This document shows, one piece after another, positions 33,023 to 40,633 of a stretch of DNA of 64,000 nt. The notes beneath the pieces are model-generated. The model saw nothing but the letters and a program-made list of their open reading frames with translations. It was not told the DNA's origin and did not search any database. Position 1 is the first letter of the stretch. Each line of letters opens with the position of its first letter. The stretch covers positions 3,038,001 through 3,102,000 of the forward strand of contig NZ_CP084469.1 of the NCBI RefSeq assembly GCF_020405205.1, given 5' to 3'. The stretch comes from Natrinema salinisoli. GTDB lineage: Archaea > Halobacteriota > Halobacteria > Halobacteriales > Natrialbaceae. The translations under genes were made by a program, and so were the position numbers.

Positions 33023-33254
33023 TCGCGAGCGCGGGCAAAAGGATAGCGGATCCCCCGCTGCCGAGAGTTCGATCCAGTTGGGCAGGATCGGCGACTCTAT
33101 TTAAGTAACGCGTACGGAACCATCGCTGAACGGTGTCCTCATTACTCGCGTGGACCTCGACCGATATCACATCGCTCACCAATATCACAGTACCTGCGTG
33201 GACCGCCGAGCGTCGCCGGAAGTTTGATATCTAGTTCGCCGTAATCGGTTGCCA

Positions 33255-34130
33255 ATGGACGGTCCCGACGGCGGCGAACGGAACAACGATCGATCCGATC
33301 CTCGCGACGCGCGCTCGGGACCACAGCGTTCGACGGACGACGCCGGGGATCGTCGGCCACGGCCCGGCGCGAAGGAACGACCCGATCGCGACAGGGTAAC
33401 GATCGATGACGACGGAGTTCTCCGCTGGTTCCTCGAGACCGACGACCGGACCGTCACGGTCTGTCGGGACGCCGCGACGATCGTCGCTCTCGTCCTCGTG
33501 ATCGGTCTCCTCCTGTTCGGTATCAACGGCACCTGGCCGCCGTTCGTCGCCGTCGAGAGCGGGAGCATGGAGCCCAACATCCAGGAAGGGGATCTCGTAT
33601 TCATCGTCGACGATGGCCGGTTCGTCGGCGACGATGCCGTCGCCGGAACCGGTATCGTCTCCCTCGAGAGCGGACGGGAGAGCGGCCACGAGAAGTTCGA
33701 CGCCCCCGGCGACGTCATCGTGTTCATGCCGAACGGTGATCCGAAGCGGACGCCGACGATCCATCGCGCCCACTTCTGGGTCGAGGCGGGCGAGAACTGG
33801 GTCGCCACGAAAGCCGATCGCGAGTTCATGAAGGGCGCGAGCTGCAACGAGCTCCTCTCGTGTCCGGCACCCCACGACGGGTTCATCACGAAAGGCGACG
33901 CCAATCCGGGGTACGACCAGTTGCCGCAGTCGGGTGCGAAAACGACCGTCATCAGTCCGGAGTGGGTGACCGGAAAAGCGATGGCCCGCGCCCCGTGGCT
34001 CGGTGAGATTCGATTAGCCGTCGGTTCGATACAGGCGCTGACCGGAATCGGATCGGCCGCCATCGTCATCGCTACGGGTGTGGTCACGCTCGTCCTGCTC
34101 GGGGCGGCCGCCGGCGGCCGGGATCCGTAA
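33255..34130 (+). CDS. sec11: signal peptidase I (S26), paralog 1
   Basis: 291 residues. A disordered, charged N-terminus (1-55) leads to VTIDDDGVLRWFLETDDRTV, a membrane helix (about 72-90), and the catalytic Ser in VAVESGSMEPNIQEGDLVF. PTIHRAHFWVEAGENW holds the conserved His and FITKGDANPGYDQ the Asp of the archaeal Ser-His-Asp set. A second membrane helix closes the protein (about 264-285). It removes signal peptides from secreted proteins. The gene is divergent from polD1 and followed 97 bp later by a paralog. Confidence 0.92.
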   Translation: MDGPDGGERNNDRSDPRDARSGPQRSTDDAGDRRPRPGAKERPDRDRVTIDDDGVLRWFLETDDRTVTVCRDAATIVALVLVIGLLLFGINGTWPPFVAVESGSMEPNIQEGDLVFIVDDGRFVGDDAVAGTGIVSLESGRESGHEKFDAPGDVIVFMPNGDPKRTPTIHRAHFWVEAGENWVATKADREFMKGASCNELLSCPAPHDGFITKGDANPGYDQLPQSGAKTTVISPEWVTGKAMARAPWLGEIRLAVGSIQALTGIGSAAIVIATGVVTLVLLGAAAGGRDP

Positions 34131-34227
34131 CGGGCTCGCCGAGGGTCTCGGTTCCGATGGCGGAGCGCTCGGTCGCCGAACACCGCGAACAGAAAGTTGA
34201 TTGGCGGGCCGGGCAAAGGGGGTGACG

Positions 34228-35193
34228 ATGAGCGGTTCTAGCTCCGGGGATCCCCCAGGTGATTCCGGCGACGACGTTCGTGAGAACGAGGATCGAAGCG
34301 CTGGCTCGTCACAGACCCAACCCTCGCCTGAGGAACGTCCGCGGAGCACCGCCGAGAACGAGGCCGTAACGATCGAAGACGACGGCGTCCTCCGCTGGTT
34401 CCTCGAGACCAACAACGAGACCGTCGTGATGACGCGAGACGTGCTGAGTAGCGTCGCCATCGTCGCCGTTGTGGGCCTCCTTCTGTTCGGAATCAGCGGT
34501 ATCTGGCCCCCGCTAGTCGCCGTCGAGAGCGGCAGCATGGAGCCGAACATGCAGAAAGGCGATCTGATTTTCGTCGTCGATGACGGCCGATACGCCGGCG
34601 ATGCCGCCGTCGAGGGGACCGGCGTCGTCACCCTCGAGCGCGGGCAAGAAACGGGCCACGAGAAGTTCGGCAACCCCGGCGACGTCATCGTCTACAGACC
34701 CGACGGGAGCCAGCTGCAAACCCCGGTAATTCATCGCGCCCATTTCTGGGTCGAAGAGGACGAAAACTGGGTCGAGACGAAAGCCAGCGAGGAGATCGTT
34801 GGCGATGCGACCTGCAGCGAGGTCGCTACCTGTCCCGCCGAACACGCCGGCTTCGTCACGAAAGGCGACGCTAACCGCGGATACGATCAATTGGCGAGAT
34901 CCGGTGCGAGAACCGACGTCGTCAAACCCGAATGGGTCACCGGCAAGGCGATGTTCCGAATTCCGTGGCTCGGCCACGTCCGGCTGACCTTCGACGAGCT
35001 CCTCGGCGGGATGCTCGTTCCGACTGCCCCCTCGAGTACGCCGATGTACGAGCCCGTTCCGGTGACGCAGACGCCGACGCCCGCCGGACCCGAAACGACC
35101 AGTGGTGGAGGCCACGGTGACTTCGCCGGGGCCGCCGCTCTCGCCACTACCGGGGCCGGACCTGCAGTTGCGGTCGGCCGGGCCGGTCCCTGA
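34228..35193 (+). CDS. signal peptidase I (S26), paralog 2, without C-terminal membrane helix
   Basis: 321 residues, clearly a tandem duplicate of the preceding gene (shared VTIEDDGVLRWFLETNNETV, VAVESGSMEPNMQKGDLIF, PVIHRAHFWVEEDENW, FVTKGDANRGYDQ). The Ser, His and Asp are retained. After WLGHVRLTFDELLGGML the C-terminal helix of paralog 1 is replaced by a Pro/Thr/Gly-rich tail (PSSTPMYEPVPVTQTPTPAG). It therefore has one membrane anchor and may differ in topology or substrate range. Confidence 0.9.
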   Translation: MSGSSSGDPPGDSGDDVRENEDRSAGSSQTQPSPEERPRSTAENEAVTIEDDGVLRWFLETNNETVVMTRDVLSSVAIVAVVGLLLFGISGIWPPLVAVESGSMEPNMQKGDLIFVVDDGRYAGDAAVEGTGVVTLERGQETGHEKFGNPGDVIVYRPDGSQLQTPVIHRAHFWVEEDENWVETKASEEIVGDATCSEVATCPAEHAGFVTKGDANRGYDQLARSGARTDVVKPEWVTGKAMFRIPWLGHVRLTFDELLGGMLVPTAPSSTPMYEPVPVTQTPTPAGPETTSGGGHGDFAGAAALATTGAGPAVAVGRAGP

Positions 35194-35454: not shown

Positions 35455-37218
35455 TCAGTTTTCGAATCGGGCCTGGACGAACGGCTGCACGTCGTCGATA
35501 TCGCTCAGTCGGGAGTCGCTCAGTAACACGGCCTCCGTCTCTTCGAGTGGAACGGAGAGACTGATCTCTTTGGTTCGACCGTACCGGCCCTTCGAGACGA
35601 CGACGGCGTTGACGATCCCGAGCATGTCGAGCTCGCTGATGAGATCCGTCACTCGCCGCTGGGTCAGGACATCTGCGTCGATCTCCTCGCACAGGCGCTT
35701 GTAGATGTTGAACACCTCGCCCGTGTTGATGCTGTGGACGCCGTTTTTCTCGAGCAAAATGATCGCGAAGAGGACGAGTTTGCTCTGCGTGGGGAGGGTC
35801 CGGACGACCTCGACGACCCGATCGAGTTCGATCTTGTCCTGGGCCTGCCGGACGTGTTCCTCGACGATCGTTTCGGCCTGTGACCGTTCGGCCAGTTCGC
35901 CCGCAGTCCGAAGGAGGTCGAGCGCGCGTCGCGCGTCCCCGTGTTCCTGTGCGGCGAAGGCCGCACACAGCGGGATCACGTCGTCCGAGAGTGCGTCGCC
36001 CTTGAACGCGACGTCCGACCGGTGGTTGAGAATATCCCGCAGCTGATTCGCGTCGTAGGGCGGGAAGACGATCTCCTCCTCGCCCAGCGACGACTTGACC
36101 CGCGGATCGAGGAAGTCGGTGAATTTCAGATCGTTCGAGATGCCGATGATCGAGACGCGCGAGTTCTCGAGTTCGGAGTTCATCCGGGAGAGGTTGTAGA
36201 GGGTGTCGTCGCCGCTTTTCTCGACGAGCTTGTCGATCTCGTCGAGCATGATCACGACGACCCGCTCGTCGTAGTCGACGGCGTCGAAGAAGACGCTGTA
36301 GACCCGGTCGGTCGGCCACCCCGTCATCGGGACTTCCTCGAAAGAGTCCTTGTCGTCTTCGAGTTCCGCAATTCGGTCGTCGACCTCGTCGCGCGCGTCG
36401 AACGGCGTCGACTCGAGCGGGTGCGCGGGCGAATCGGTTGCCGATGAGTCGCCCTGATCGGTGCCGGCGACGGCCGTCGGATCTGTGGTATCCGAGGACG
36501 CTACGGCCGGAGCCGATTCCGAAGACCCCTCCGTTTCGAGTGGAGAATCGACCGACGTAGCGTCGGTATTGGGTCCAGGAGAACCGTCTCCGTGCGAGTC
36601 GGTTTCGTCGCTCGAGACGAAATCGAAGGGGTCCGACGCCGTCTGGTCATCTGACAGGTCGTCGGTTCCAGTTTCCTCGGCGCTGCGACGCTCCGCGTCG
36701 GCGTCGTACTCGTCGAGGGCGTCCAGCAGCGACTCGAGTTCCGCGACTCGGTCGTCGATGCGCTCTTTGTTCTTGTCGATGAACTTGTTCGCGAGTTGCG
36801 CGAGGACGCGGTACTGGGTATCGGTGACCTCGCAGTTGATGTACTCGACGTCGCAGGGAACGCTGTACTTTTGAGAGGTACTCTCGAGTTCCTTGCTGAC
36901 GAATTTGGCGCTCGCGGTCTTGCCGGTCCCCGTTTTCCCGTAGATGAGAATATTCGATGGCGTTTCACCGCGGAGTGCGGCGACAAGGATCGTCGCCATC
37001 TTGTTGATCTGATCGCTCCGGTGGGGGAGCTCGTGTGGGGTGTAGGACGGACGAAGCACCTCCTTGTTCTCGAAGATCGGTTCGCCGCTGAGGAGGTCGT
37101 CGAACAACCCCTGATTCGACTCTTCGTCGTCGAGATCGGCGCTCTCGAAGTCCGTCGAGAACCCGCTCGTTCCGTCACCGTCGTCTGAGTCAGTGATCTC
37201 TGAGTTGTCGTCTGACAT
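35455..37218 (-). CDS. orc1/cdc6: Orc1/Cdc6 replication initiator
   Basis: 587 residues, larger than the ~400 typical of archaeal Orc1/Cdc6. AAA+ motifs: Walker A NILIYGKTGTGKTASAKFV, Walker B VVVIMLDEIDKLVEKSGDDT and sensor-1 VSIIGISNDLKFTDFLDPR. The C-terminal winged helix (about 490-587) binds ORBs. The extra length is an acidic Ser/Asp/Thr-rich insertion (about residues 155-285) between Walker A and Walker B. It sits next to the origin, with one ORB 13 bp upstream of its ATG and another inside its insertion-coding DNA, which suggests autoregulation (inference). Confidence 0.96.
   Translation of the reverse strand: MSDDNSEITDSDDGDGTSGFSTDFESADLDDEESNQGLFDDLLSGEPIFENKEVLRPSYTPHELPHRSDQINKMATILVAALRGETPSNILIYGKTGTGKTASAKFVSKELESTSQKYSVPCDVEYINCEVTDTQYRVLAQLANKFIDKNKERIDDRVAELESLLDALDEYDADAERRSAEETGTDDLSDDQTASDPFDFVSSDETDSHGDGSPGPNTDATSVDSPLETEGSSESAPAVASSDTTDPTAVAGTDQGDSSATDSPAHPLESTPFDARDEVDDRIAELEDDKDSFEEVPMTGWPTDRVYSVFFDAVDYDERVVVIMLDEIDKLVEKSGDDTLYNLSRMNSELENSRVSIIGISNDLKFTDFLDPRVKSSLGEEEIVFPPYDANQLRDILNHRSDVAFKGDALSDDVIPLCAAFAAQEHGDARRALDLLRTAGELAERSQAETIVEEHVRQAQDKIELDRVVEVVRTLPTQSKLVLFAIILLEKNGVHSINTGEVFNIYKRLCEEIDADVLTQRRVTDLISELDMLGIVNAVVVSKGRYGRTKEISLSVPLEETEAVLLSDSRLSDIDDVQPFVQARFEN
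36525..36547 (-). promoter_or_regulatory. origin recognition box-like site inside orc1
   Basis: Minus strand reads TTCTCCACTCGAAACGGAGG plus GGT, matching the origin boxes. It encodes residues about 224-232 (DSPLETEGS) of the acidic insertion. Confidence 0.6.
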
Positions 37219-37838: not shown

Positions 37839-37869
37839 CCCCCCCCCACCCCTTCGTTTCGAGTGGAAC
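37839..37869 (-). promoter_or_regulatory. ORB2, reverse orientation, with long C/G tract
   Basis: Minus strand reads GTTCCACTCGAAACGAAGGG followed by GTGG and a run of nine G. It is the left member of the inverted pair that flanks the CTAG-rich core. Confidence 0.82.
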
Positions 37870-37951
37870 CTGCCGAGAGGGCGGGTGGGGGTTCGACGAC
37901 ATTTCATGACGAGAAGTTTTATGTAGTGATGTGAGAAACAGTATCCGTAGA

Positions 37952-38059
37952 ACTAGCAGACACACTAGTCTTACTAGGGCCTTGTTCCTAGTTACTAGTT
38001 CCTGCTAGAGTCACTTCTCACGGCCGTCTCGATTACTAGAATCGTTATCGAGTTACTAG
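37952..38059. repeat. CTAG / TTACTAG repeat cluster in the origin core
   Basis: CTAG occurs at 37953, 37965, 37974, 37988, 37995, 38005, 38036 and 38056, i.e. eight times in 107 bp. Four copies are part of TTACTAG (37971, 37992, 38033, 38053). The stretch lies between the two inverted ORBs and is AT-richer than its surroundings, so it is the best candidate for the unwinding element. Confidence 0.8.
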
Positions 38060-38183
38060 ATCGATCGCTATTGGGGAATTCACCAGCGAGATCCTCTCGC
38101 AACCTCCTTCGAGTCGAAACAGAGGGTCGAAATCGTCGCAGTCCCGGTCGATCAGCTCTCGTCACCACCCACGGTCCCGTCAC

Positions 38184-38211
38184 TCTCCAGTTGAAACGAA
38201 GGGGTGGGGGT
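38184..38211 (+). promoter_or_regulatory. ORB3, forward orientation
   Basis: Reads TCTCCAGTTGAAACGAAGGG followed by GTGGGGGT. It is the right member of the inverted pair, about 315 bp from ORB2. Confidence 0.82.
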
Positions 38212-38568: not shown

Positions 38569-39207
38569 ATGGGACTGTTCACAGAACTCAAAGATAGTAT
38601 CTCTCGGGCTACAGACCGCCTGTTTTCGGAACAGGAGCCCAAACGAATCGGTATCTACGGTCCGCCGAACGCCGGCAAGACGACGCTCGCGAACCGTATC
38701 GCACGTGACTGGACTGGCGACGCGATCGGCGCTGAGAGTCACGTCCCTCACGAGACTCGTCGCGCACGCAGGAAAGAAAACGTCGAGATCGAACGAGACG
38801 GAAAGACGGTGACCATCGACATCGTCGACACACCCGGTGTGACGACGAAAGTCGACTACGAAGAGTTCACCGACGAAATGGACGAAGAGGACGCGATTCG
38901 TCGCTCCCGCGAAGCGACCGAAGGCGTCGCGGAAGCCATGCACTGGCTTCGAGAGGACGTCGATGGCGTCATCTACGTCCTGGATAGCGCAGAGGATCCG
39001 ATCACGCAGGTCAACACGATGCTGATCGGCATCATCGAATCACGCGATCTCCCGGTTCTCATCTTCGCGAACAAGATCGACCTCGAGGAATCGAGCGTCA
39101 AGCGGATCGAGGACGCCTTCCCGCAGCACAAGACCGTGCCGCTCTCGGCGAAGGAAGGCGACAACATGGACGAAGTCTACGACAGCATCGCGGAGTACTT
39201 CGGGTGA
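38569..39207 (+). CDS. oapA: Era/Obg-like GTPase, origin-associated protein OapA
   Basis: 212 residues. G1 IGIYGPPNAGKTTLANRI, G3 DIVDTPGVTTKVD, G4 IFANKIDLEES and G5 PLSAKEGDN are all intact, so it should bind and hydrolyse GTP. First gene of the three-gene operon conserved beside haloarchaeal origins, hence 'origin-associated protein'. A Shine-Dalgarno-like GGAGG (38555-38559) lies 9 bp before ATG 38569, and a TATA-like gcttaagt near 38506-38513 gives a short leader. Its role in replication is by association. Confidence 0.9.
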   Translation: MGLFTELKDSISRATDRLFSEQEPKRIGIYGPPNAGKTTLANRIARDWTGDAIGAESHVPHETRRARRKENVEIERDGKTVTIDIVDTPGVTTKVDYEEFTDEMDEEDAIRRSREATEGVAEAMHWLREDVDGVIYVLDSAEDPITQVNTMLIGIIESRDLPVLIFANKIDLEESSVKRIEDAFPQHKTVPLSAKEGDNMDEVYDSIAEYFG

Positions 39208-39614
39208 TTACGATGCCAAAAGCAACCAATGCGGACGACCCGGACGCACCCGACGGCGTGCAGATCGACCTGATCAGCGGCGAACGCATGGACGGCATGG
39301 CGACCATGGAGAAGATCAGGATGATCCTGGACGGCGTCCACGACGGCAATATCGTCATCCTGGAAGAGGGGCTCACTCCCGACGAGGAGAGCCGACTCAT
39401 CGAGGTCACGATGGCCGAAATCAGTCCCGACGAATTCAATGGGATCGAGATCGAAACCTACCCGAAATCCGACACCCGCGATTCGTCGTTGCTCGGCCGC
39501 ATCATGGGAGGTGAGGAGGCGGAAGCGAAGCTGACGGTGATCGGCCCGGCCAATCAGATCGAAACGCTCCACAAGGACGAAACGCTCATCAGCGCGCTCG
39601 TGTCCCGTAACTAA
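39204..39614 (+). CDS. oapB: DUF2073 protein, origin-associated protein OapB
   Basis: 136 residues from GTG 39204, which overlaps the oapA stop (GTGA); ATG 39213 is the alternative. DUF2073 pattern: GVQIDLISGERMDGMATMEK, IRMILDGVHDGNIVILEEGL and PDEESRLIEVTMAEISPDEF. Small alpha/beta protein with no catalytic motif known to me. It is translationally coupled to oapA and oapC, so the three probably form one functional unit. Confidence 0.87.
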   Translation: MITMPKATNADDPDAPDGVQIDLISGERMDGMATMEKIRMILDGVHDGNIVILEEGLTPDEESRLIEVTMAEISPDEFNGIEIETYPKSDTRDSSLLGRIMGGEEAEAKLTVIGPANQIETLHKDETLISALVSRN

Positions 39615-40633
39615 TGCCTCACCAGTGTACGAACTGTGGCCGGACGTTCGCCGACGGCTCCAAGGAGATGCTCTCCGGCTGTCCCGACTGCGGCGGGAAC
39701 AAGTTCCAGTTCGCACCGACTGCGGCCGCCGTCGCTGACTCGTCCGCCGAAGCCGAGGGCTCGGGCTCGCTCGATGCCGACGGTACCGCGGGGGAATCCA
39801 CCGCTCCCGAGTCCGACAGCGTGGCGACGCGAGCTGCGGAGACGGTTCGTGATCTGGTGGCCAGCGATTCGTCCGACGGGTCGGCGGCCGATACCCCGGC
39901 GGAACCGCCGCTCGAGGAGTCGGCCGAGACCATACAGTCGGACGCCTCCTGGCCCTCGAGCGAGGACGCCCCCGAAACGGATTCGACGACGTCGGACGGC
40001 GAATTCAAAGAATGGCCGGAAACGGCTCGACGGCCCGAGGACCGATCGGAGTCCTCGGACGAAGCGGCTGCCGACGCAGCACCCGAAACCGGACCCACCG
40101 ATCGAACCGACTCCGAGTGGCCACCGCAGTCCTCGGCCTCGAGCGGTCCGACGACGACGATCGCGGACGACGAGAACTCGGCACAGGCCAACGCCCGCAG
40201 CGAGGTCATTACGACGAACGACCTTCCGTCCCGCTCCGGGACGGCCACACGGGATACATCGGACCACGGCACCGAGGCTGGACCGGACCCTGGCGACCCG
40301 GCAGGCTCGGAACACGGCCGCGAGGTGGACAGTGCGGTCGAGACGCCGGCTGATGCCGACGATGGTTCCAGTGACGAACTCGACGCCGACCAGTCGCCCG
40401 ACCACGGTCGCGTCGTCAGCGAGCCGAGCGGTCAGCGACCGTCGCTCGAGGAGCTCCGGGCGGAACTCAACGAGCAGTTCGAGAGCATCAAGATCGTCAG
40501 TCCGGGACAGTACGAACTCAATTTGATGGAACTCTACAACCGCGACGAGTACATCATCTCCTTGCAGGAAGACGGCCGATACGTCATCGACGTTCCGGAT
40601 TCGTGGCGCGCCGGCGACGACGAGGACGAGTGA
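39614..40633 (+). CDS. oapC: zinc-ribbon protein OapC with long disordered linker
   Basis: 339 residues; start overlaps the oapB stop by one base (TAATG). N-terminal zinc ribbon MPHQCTNCGRTFADGSKEML then SGCPDCGGNKFQF (CxxC...CxxC). Residues ~36-275 are Ser/Glu/Asp/Thr/Pro-rich and presumably disordered. A conserved C-terminal domain (about 278-335) contains LRAELNEQFESIKIVSPGQY and ELNLMELYNRDEYIISLQED. It may tether DNA or protein partners of OapA/B (inference). Confidence 0.87.
   Translation: MPHQCTNCGRTFADGSKEMLSGCPDCGGNKFQFAPTAAAVADSSAEAEGSGSLDADGTAGESTAPESDSVATRAAETVRDLVASDSSDGSAADTPAEPPLEESAETIQSDASWPSSEDAPETDSTTSDGEFKEWPETARRPEDRSESSDEAAADAAPETGPTDRTDSEWPPQSSASSGPTTTIADDENSAQANARSEVITTNDLPSRSGTATRDTSDHGTEAGPDPGDPAGSEHGREVDSAVETPADADDGSSDELDADQSPDHGRVVSEPSGQRPSLEELRAELNEQFESIKIVSPGQYELNLMELYNRDEYIISLQEDGRYVIDVPDSWRAGDDEDE

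Follow-up and report, generated by a model that had tools for sequence, protein, structure and literature searches.

Comparison of haloarchaeal origins suggests that tagging of CTAG sites may help control chromosome copying

Why should a tetranucleotide that is scarce in the surrounding DNA occur eight times within 107 bp in the core of a replication origin? The question arises from the window, which denotes the whole stretch of 64,000 nucleotides that was analysed. It sits on a 4.19-Mb contig of a 4.70-Mb Natrinema genome, and its OapA is 100% identical to that of N. salsiterrestre, the nearest relatives being Natrinema. The sequence-only reading of this DNA had proposed, by analogy with GATC sites in bacterial oriC, that the methylation state of the CTAG sites could gate origin firing or sequester new origins.

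The CTAG array and the layout of oriC1

The features of the origin are listed below, with coordinates as positions in the window.

35455..37218, minus strand: orc1/cdc6 initiator gene (AAA, Cdc6_lid, Cdc6_C)
37840..37869, minus strand: left ORB with G-string, 13-bp core 37848-37860, reverse complement of GTTCCACTCGAAACGAAGGGGTGGGGGGGG
37880..37891, plus strand: left arm of the inner G-rich inverted repeat
37901..38001, no strand: 100-bp stretch of lowest stability inside the ORB pair; overlaps the CTAG array in the array's left half
37953..38059, no strand: CTAG array of eight sites, with those at 37953, 37974, 37995, 38005, 38036 and 38056 in helical phase
37971..37977, plus strand: first of four TTACTAG copies, the others being 37992-37998, 38033-38039 and 38053-38059 in the same orientation
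38164..38172, minus strand: right arm of the inner G-rich inverted repeat
38189..38210, plus strand: right ORB with G-string, 13-bp core 38193-38205, AGTTGAAACGAAGGGGTGGGGG
38569..39207, plus strand: oapA-type GTPase gene, synteny anchor of the survey
39213..39614, plus strand: oapB (Pfam Origin-associated protein OapB)
39614..40633, plus strand: oapC (Pfam Origin-associated protein OapC)

The locus has what characterizes a canonical haloarchaeal oriC1, namely inverted ORBs with G-strings, an AT-richer core and adjacent orc1/cdc6 and oap genes. Its core of 332 bp is enclosed by the two inverted ORBs, and the CTAG sites start at 37953, 37965, 37974, 37988, 37995, 38005, 38036 and 38056. The sequence-only reading had described eight sites in the origin core, four of them within TTACTAG and all between the inverted ORBs, and this description was confirmed at 37953-38059. 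All four TTACTAG copies are on the plus strand, and the array is closer to the left ORB than to the right. The inner G-rich inverted repeat corresponds to an element shown to enhance oriC1 of Haloarcula hispanica (PMC3936714). The stretch at 37901..38001 is probably the unwinding region; in the family mean, the least stable point of the core lies 100-160 bp from the left ORB. Beside the origin, Orc1 (35455-37218) has a long acidic low-complexity insert at about residues 150-290, which is seemingly missing from most paralogues in the genome, judged by split matches. Two neighbouring and similar signal-peptidase-like ORFs (33249-34130 and 34201-35193) lie directly beside orc1.

The claimed scarcity of CTAG was borne out. 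The whole window contains 28 CTAG compared to 84 expected from dinucleotide shuffles, and outside the array there are 20 sites in 63.9 kb (0.31/kb), below dinucleotide expectation. At this density, 0.03 sites are expected in 107 bp, and the Poisson probability of eight is about 4e-17; background densities throughout come from the window and the fetched loci. When the local, AT-richer sequence was shuffled 20,000 times, the maximum was six CTAG and eight were never reached. A search of the whole genome (4.7 Mb) for three CTAG sites with 0 to 16 nucleotides between neighbours (CTAG-N0-16-CTAG-N0-16-CTAG) returned only two loci, the oriC1 array and C1:658588-658616, where C1 denotes a contig of the same genome (G000). 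Looser CTAG triplets were also seen at G000:C1:1266745-1266822 and 3917123-3917169, in AT-rich DNA outside known origins.

An orphan methyltransferase and its association with the array

An orphan CTAG methyltransferase gene, for which the sequence-only reading suggested a search, was found in the same genome. The region C1:822352-823413 encodes a 354-aa N6_N4_Mtase with 48% identity, over 93% of the protein, to the methyltransferase of pFZ1 (MthZI system). On pFZ1 this methyltransferase adjoins an MjaI-family REase, with which it belongs to the MthZI system specific for CTAG; a search of the present genome for the MjaI family detected no such REase. SMRT measurements in congeners gave m4CTAG levels of 97.0% (N. 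versiforme BOL5-4) and 98.7% (N. pallidum BOL6-1; PMC6696651), and our survey contains different strains of both species, with 7 and 9 CTAG, respectively, in the oriC1 core.

Clustered m4CTAG might protect against, or mark self for, a CTAG-cutting or methyl-sensing nuclease and have no role in timing. CTAG-targeting RM systems do exist (MthZI), and several haloviruses lack CTAG or have fewer copies than expected (PMC6471742). However, the MjaI-family search of this genome speaks against such a defence, which would also leave unexplained why tight clusters occur only at origins, and we give this explanation hardly any weight.

For the class-wide survey, methyltransferases were called at E<=1e-60, and 332 of 391 genomes were positive. 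The 59 negative genomes belong mostly to genus g30 (39/46; probably Halorubrum) and its relatives. The oriC1 loci were anchored on OapA, which resulted in a table of 245 loci with an ORB pair found in 201; Halorubrum-like loci in which oapA has no ORB pair next to it were mostly left unscored (23/46). Among the 201 cores, at least two CTAG between the ORBs were present in 132 of the 162 enzyme-positive genomes and in none of the 39 enzyme-negative ones, so that across the class the array depends on the enzyme. Conservation in related origins, another point raised by the sequence-only reading, is pronounced, with at least four CTAG in 40 of the 41 Natrialbaceae cores in the table. CTAG density in the core exceeds that of the flanks 57-fold in Natrialbaceae, 44-fold in family f3 and 30-fold in other positives, compared to 4-fold in negatives; the related origins of enzyme-positive groups are therefore 30-57x over their flanks and not at background density.

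The pattern is specific for CTAG. Relative to shuffled cores, CTAG is at 5.1x in Natrialbaceae, 3.5x in all other positives and 0.25x in negatives, and none of GATC, GTAC, CATG and the other tetramers tested on the same cores has a CTAG-like enrichment pattern. The density of TpA is alike in positive and negative cores (57-79/kb), whereas the share of TpA steps that fall inside CTAG is 30% in Natrialbaceae, 28% in f3 and 1% in negatives. The groups thus differ by the tetramer and not by TA-richness. These counts bear on the possibility that CTAG and nearby TpA steps simply ease opening of the DNA, the correlation with the methyltransferase being a phylogenetic coincidence. The array does lie over the part of the core with the lowest stability, the weakest stacking step is found in CTAG, and the independent contrasts given below are too few for significance. 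However, enzyme-negative cores are equally TpA- and AT-rich and yet have CTAG at only 0.25x of shuffle, and the cluster at the second origin described below is outside the ORB pair. We consider this account distinctly improbable; a general unwinding element as the sole cause is rejected by the TpA counts.

The flanks were of interest for a further alternative, in which a putative process purges CTAG genome-wide and the origin core merely escapes. Flank CTAG is 0.25-0.46/kb in enzyme-positive and 0.23/kb in enzyme-negative genomes; it is about equally rare with or without the enzyme, and its scarcity is therefore independent of the enzyme, as such a process would have it. However, relaxed avoidance predicts composition-level CTAG in all cores, and positives are 3.5-5x above and negatives 4x below this level. 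The conserved positions and the turnover around retained CTAG, both described in the next section, also indicate positive maintenance. Relaxed avoidance is already disfavoured and in our view very unlikely.

The association between enzyme and array is phylogenetically clumped, with about nine changes of enzyme state on a tree built from OapA, OapB and Orc1. Among eight independent supported pairs, four were concordant, none was discordant and four were ties when the threshold was set at two CTAG (P about 0.12 by sign test). A genus-stratified permutation over four mixed genera gave P=0.022, resting on the CTAG counts of g32 (1,1,2,0,1 vs 0,0,0), g66 (3,3,1 vs 0) and g81 (3 vs 1), with no difference between enzyme states in g30. 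The enzyme without the array is common, as in Halorussus (g37; 0-2 CTAG) and genus g35 (0-1 CTAG), and a core with only 0-2 CTAG is also seen in two enzyme-positive genomes that are Halorubrum-like. Because Halorussus and g35 carry the enzyme without the array, the enzyme looks necessary but not sufficient, and a strict one-to-one dependence is rejected by Halorussus and others.

Several other properties of the surveyed origins were noted. Enzyme-negative oriC1 cores are TATA/ATAT-rich (10-13 per kb) and GATC-poor. A Dam-like replacement in these genomes was considered and rejected, GATC being depleted in their cores (0.3x flanks). The spacing of the ORBs is mostly 310-365 bp in Natrialbaceae, mostly 250-310 in f3 and usually 190-235 in clades where CTAG is scarce or missing, which looks as though about 100 bp of core had been gained with the array. 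Of the g30 genomes (L090-L134), about half have neither orc1 nor an ORB pair beside oapA, and oriC1 appears to be separated or rearranged in this genus.

Phasing in Natrialbaceae and a second orc1/cdc6 locus

Across about 45 Natrialbaceae loci, the distances of conserved CTAG from the left ORB are about 54, 83, 104, 125, 146, 156, 187 and 207 bp, and these positions recur despite an ORB spacing that varies from about 250 to 365 bp. The steps from position 83 on (21, 21, 21, 10, 31 and 20) correspond to a period of ~10.3 bp. Phasing of the eight positions gave R=0.95 with P about 1e-4 under random placement, which is indicative since the positions tested were themselves taken from these loci. 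In the array of the window, six of the eight sites are in phase, with 37965 and 37988 as extras. The conserved CTAG columns are 93.5% identical compared to 58% for the rest of the core (52 Natrialbaceae; columns are not independent). The direction is also biased, TTA preceding CTAG 103 times in forward and 8 times in reverse orientation in Natrialbaceae, where 4 are expected; family f3 has 6 forward and 7 reverse.

Cooperative binding of a protein to the Natrialbaceae array is also suggested by such TTACTAG repeats, which share a strand and a helical face. Taken further, the phased TTACTAG copies could be primarily sites for an origin-binding or nucleoid protein, or for Orc1, which bends or coats the unwinding region, methylation being incidental. 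The ~10.3-bp period (R 0.95) and the 103 vs 8 direction bias fit this well, and UBP with its ucm motif in Sulfolobales, as described in the sections of the source used here, is an archaeal protein on a non-ORB origin motif (PMC12141716). However, other families keep the number of CTAG and lose TTA, orientation and phasing; TTA before CTAG is confined to Natrialbaceae, and both a universal longer motif and universal helical phasing are rejected. A protein unrelated to methylation also fails to predict 0/39 in enzyme-negative genomes, and the cluster at the second origin turns over completely around CTAG. A binding array of this kind is possible but, in our judgement, rather unlikely.

The second tight cluster, CTAGCTAGAACTAGCCTTCTACAATCTAG at G000:C1:658588-658616 (L001:1501-1529), is near another orc1/cdc6. 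It lies about 0.65 kb upstream of this gene and falls outside an inverted pair of ORB-like sequences, at a distance of about 120 bp. This orc1/cdc6 (C1:659240) is 97-100% identical across 21 genomes of the window's genus. In the 210-bp stretch 800-590 bp upstream of the gene, which was picked after the first positions had been seen, the 21 genomes together have 114 CTAG compared to 17 expected, a density of 25.9/kb compared to 0.16/kb in the gene and downstream. Between 3 and 10 CTAG are found in this stretch in 19 of the 21 congeners, and the remaining two carry CTAG slightly further upstream. The surrounding sequence is replaced, since only 1.6% of 10-mers are common between genomes in the CTAG stretch, compared to 18% for the ORB pair next to it and 43% within the gene. 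Retention of CTAG amid this turnover is the clearest sign that selection acts on CTAG itself. Because CTAG is kept while its surroundings are replaced, the common denominator is less likely to be an unwinding element or a binding motif of greater length.

Methylation targets at the origin and comparison to known systems

Taken together, the comparison supports selection acting on CTAG as a methylation target, and across about 200 relatives it suggests that tagging of CTAG sites may help control chromosome copying. The best explanation, in which we have about even confidence, is that selection maintains the CTAG array of the oriC1 unwinding core as targets of the orphan m4C methyltransferase, whose methylation state would affect initiation. 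We infer that the sites of the window are methylated and that, when the origin fires, all eight (sixteen cytosines) would become hemimethylated together. A putative factor or step of initiation that responds to CTAG methylation within or next to the unwinding region could then delay, license or time the next initiation. In asynchronous cultures, the reported CTAG methylation of 97-99% (PMC6696651) provides no indication of hemimethylated DNA that persists for long.

Much of the original interpretation stood, as CTAG is rare, the conserved cluster is in the core, the genome has an orphan enzyme and congeners have m4CTAG. The gating of firing or sequestration of new origins remains a proposal, and several clades with the enzyme lack the array. 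As to a SeqA homologue, PF03925 is absent from the genome at E<=1, with the E. coli positive control detected, and the link of Dam/SeqA to the CTAG array is one of analogy. We put forward only tentatively, as possible rather than probable, a haloarchaeal methylation-based origin control that would have evolved independently of Dam/SeqA. In it, clustered m4CTAG at several origins would be read by a putative protein, and the phased, directional TTACTAG platform of Natrialbaceae would assemble the reader or the initiator along the unwinding region on a single face.

A methylation-free H. volcanii strain grows normally (PMC5867850), and H. volcanii is CTAG-dense at one origin only, oriC2; any control by CTAG methylation would therefore be non-essential there. 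Since oriC1 of H. volcanii is not a strong case, Natrinema or Haloarcula is better suited to testing.

The array resembles E. coli oriC with GATC, Dam and SeqA in having dense palindromic methylation targets in an origin and an orphan methyltransferase. It differs in that the E. coli system has m6A and a DnaA origin and the present one m4C and an Orc1 origin, in that no SeqA homologue was found in the Natrinema genome, and in that the enzyme is dispensable in H. volcanii. Although M.MthZI and R.MthZI of pFZ1 form a complete RM system, the 48%-identical methyltransferase here was found with no MjaI-type REase. Like oriC1 of Haloarcula hispanica, the origin has inverted ORBs with G-strings, an inner G-rich inverted repeat, an AT-rich core and an orc1/cdc6 neighbour (PMC3936714); CTAG is not treated as an element in the sections of that dissection drawn on here.

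Origins with CTAG clusters are a known kind, since they were reported earlier together with the enzyme. Blow et al. (2016) found that peaks of CTAG density at haloarchaeal orc1/cdc6 starts track the orphan methyltransferase and proposed replication control (PMC4752239, Fig 6D), the motif being printed as CATG in the text and CTAG in the figure legend (PMC4752239). Anton et al. (2023) restated the CTAG clusters at origins (HG1) and called the enzyme's function unknown (PMC10609329), and Fullmer et al. (2019) list the methyltransferase family as cHG U (PMC6471742). The present genome likewise has a non-coding CTAG cluster beside orc1/cdc6, orthologous clusters in relatives and an orphan enzyme; motif, enzyme family and place are the same as in Blow et al., and several orc1/cdc6 loci of one genome are involved. 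Unlike these three studies, which worked with 500-bp densities, we give the positions of CTAG within the ORB pair, the phasing and TTACTAG direction in Natrialbaceae, and the tetramer and TpA controls. We also add the absence of the array in 39 enzyme-negative cores, the retention of CTAG through turnover at a second origin, and the clades having the enzyme without the array. In the literature searched, we found neither the helical phasing nor controls with tetramers and TpA nor the turnover around retained CTAG. Little is understood of how re-initiation at archaeal origins is prevented or timed, and the widespread CTAG methyltransferase of Haloarchaea has been called an enzyme of unknown role (PMC10609329). 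With origins that keep CTAG rather than TpA richness or AT content, and an array that is missing in enzyme-negative cores, the published density correlation becomes a testable hypothesis at the level of single bases.
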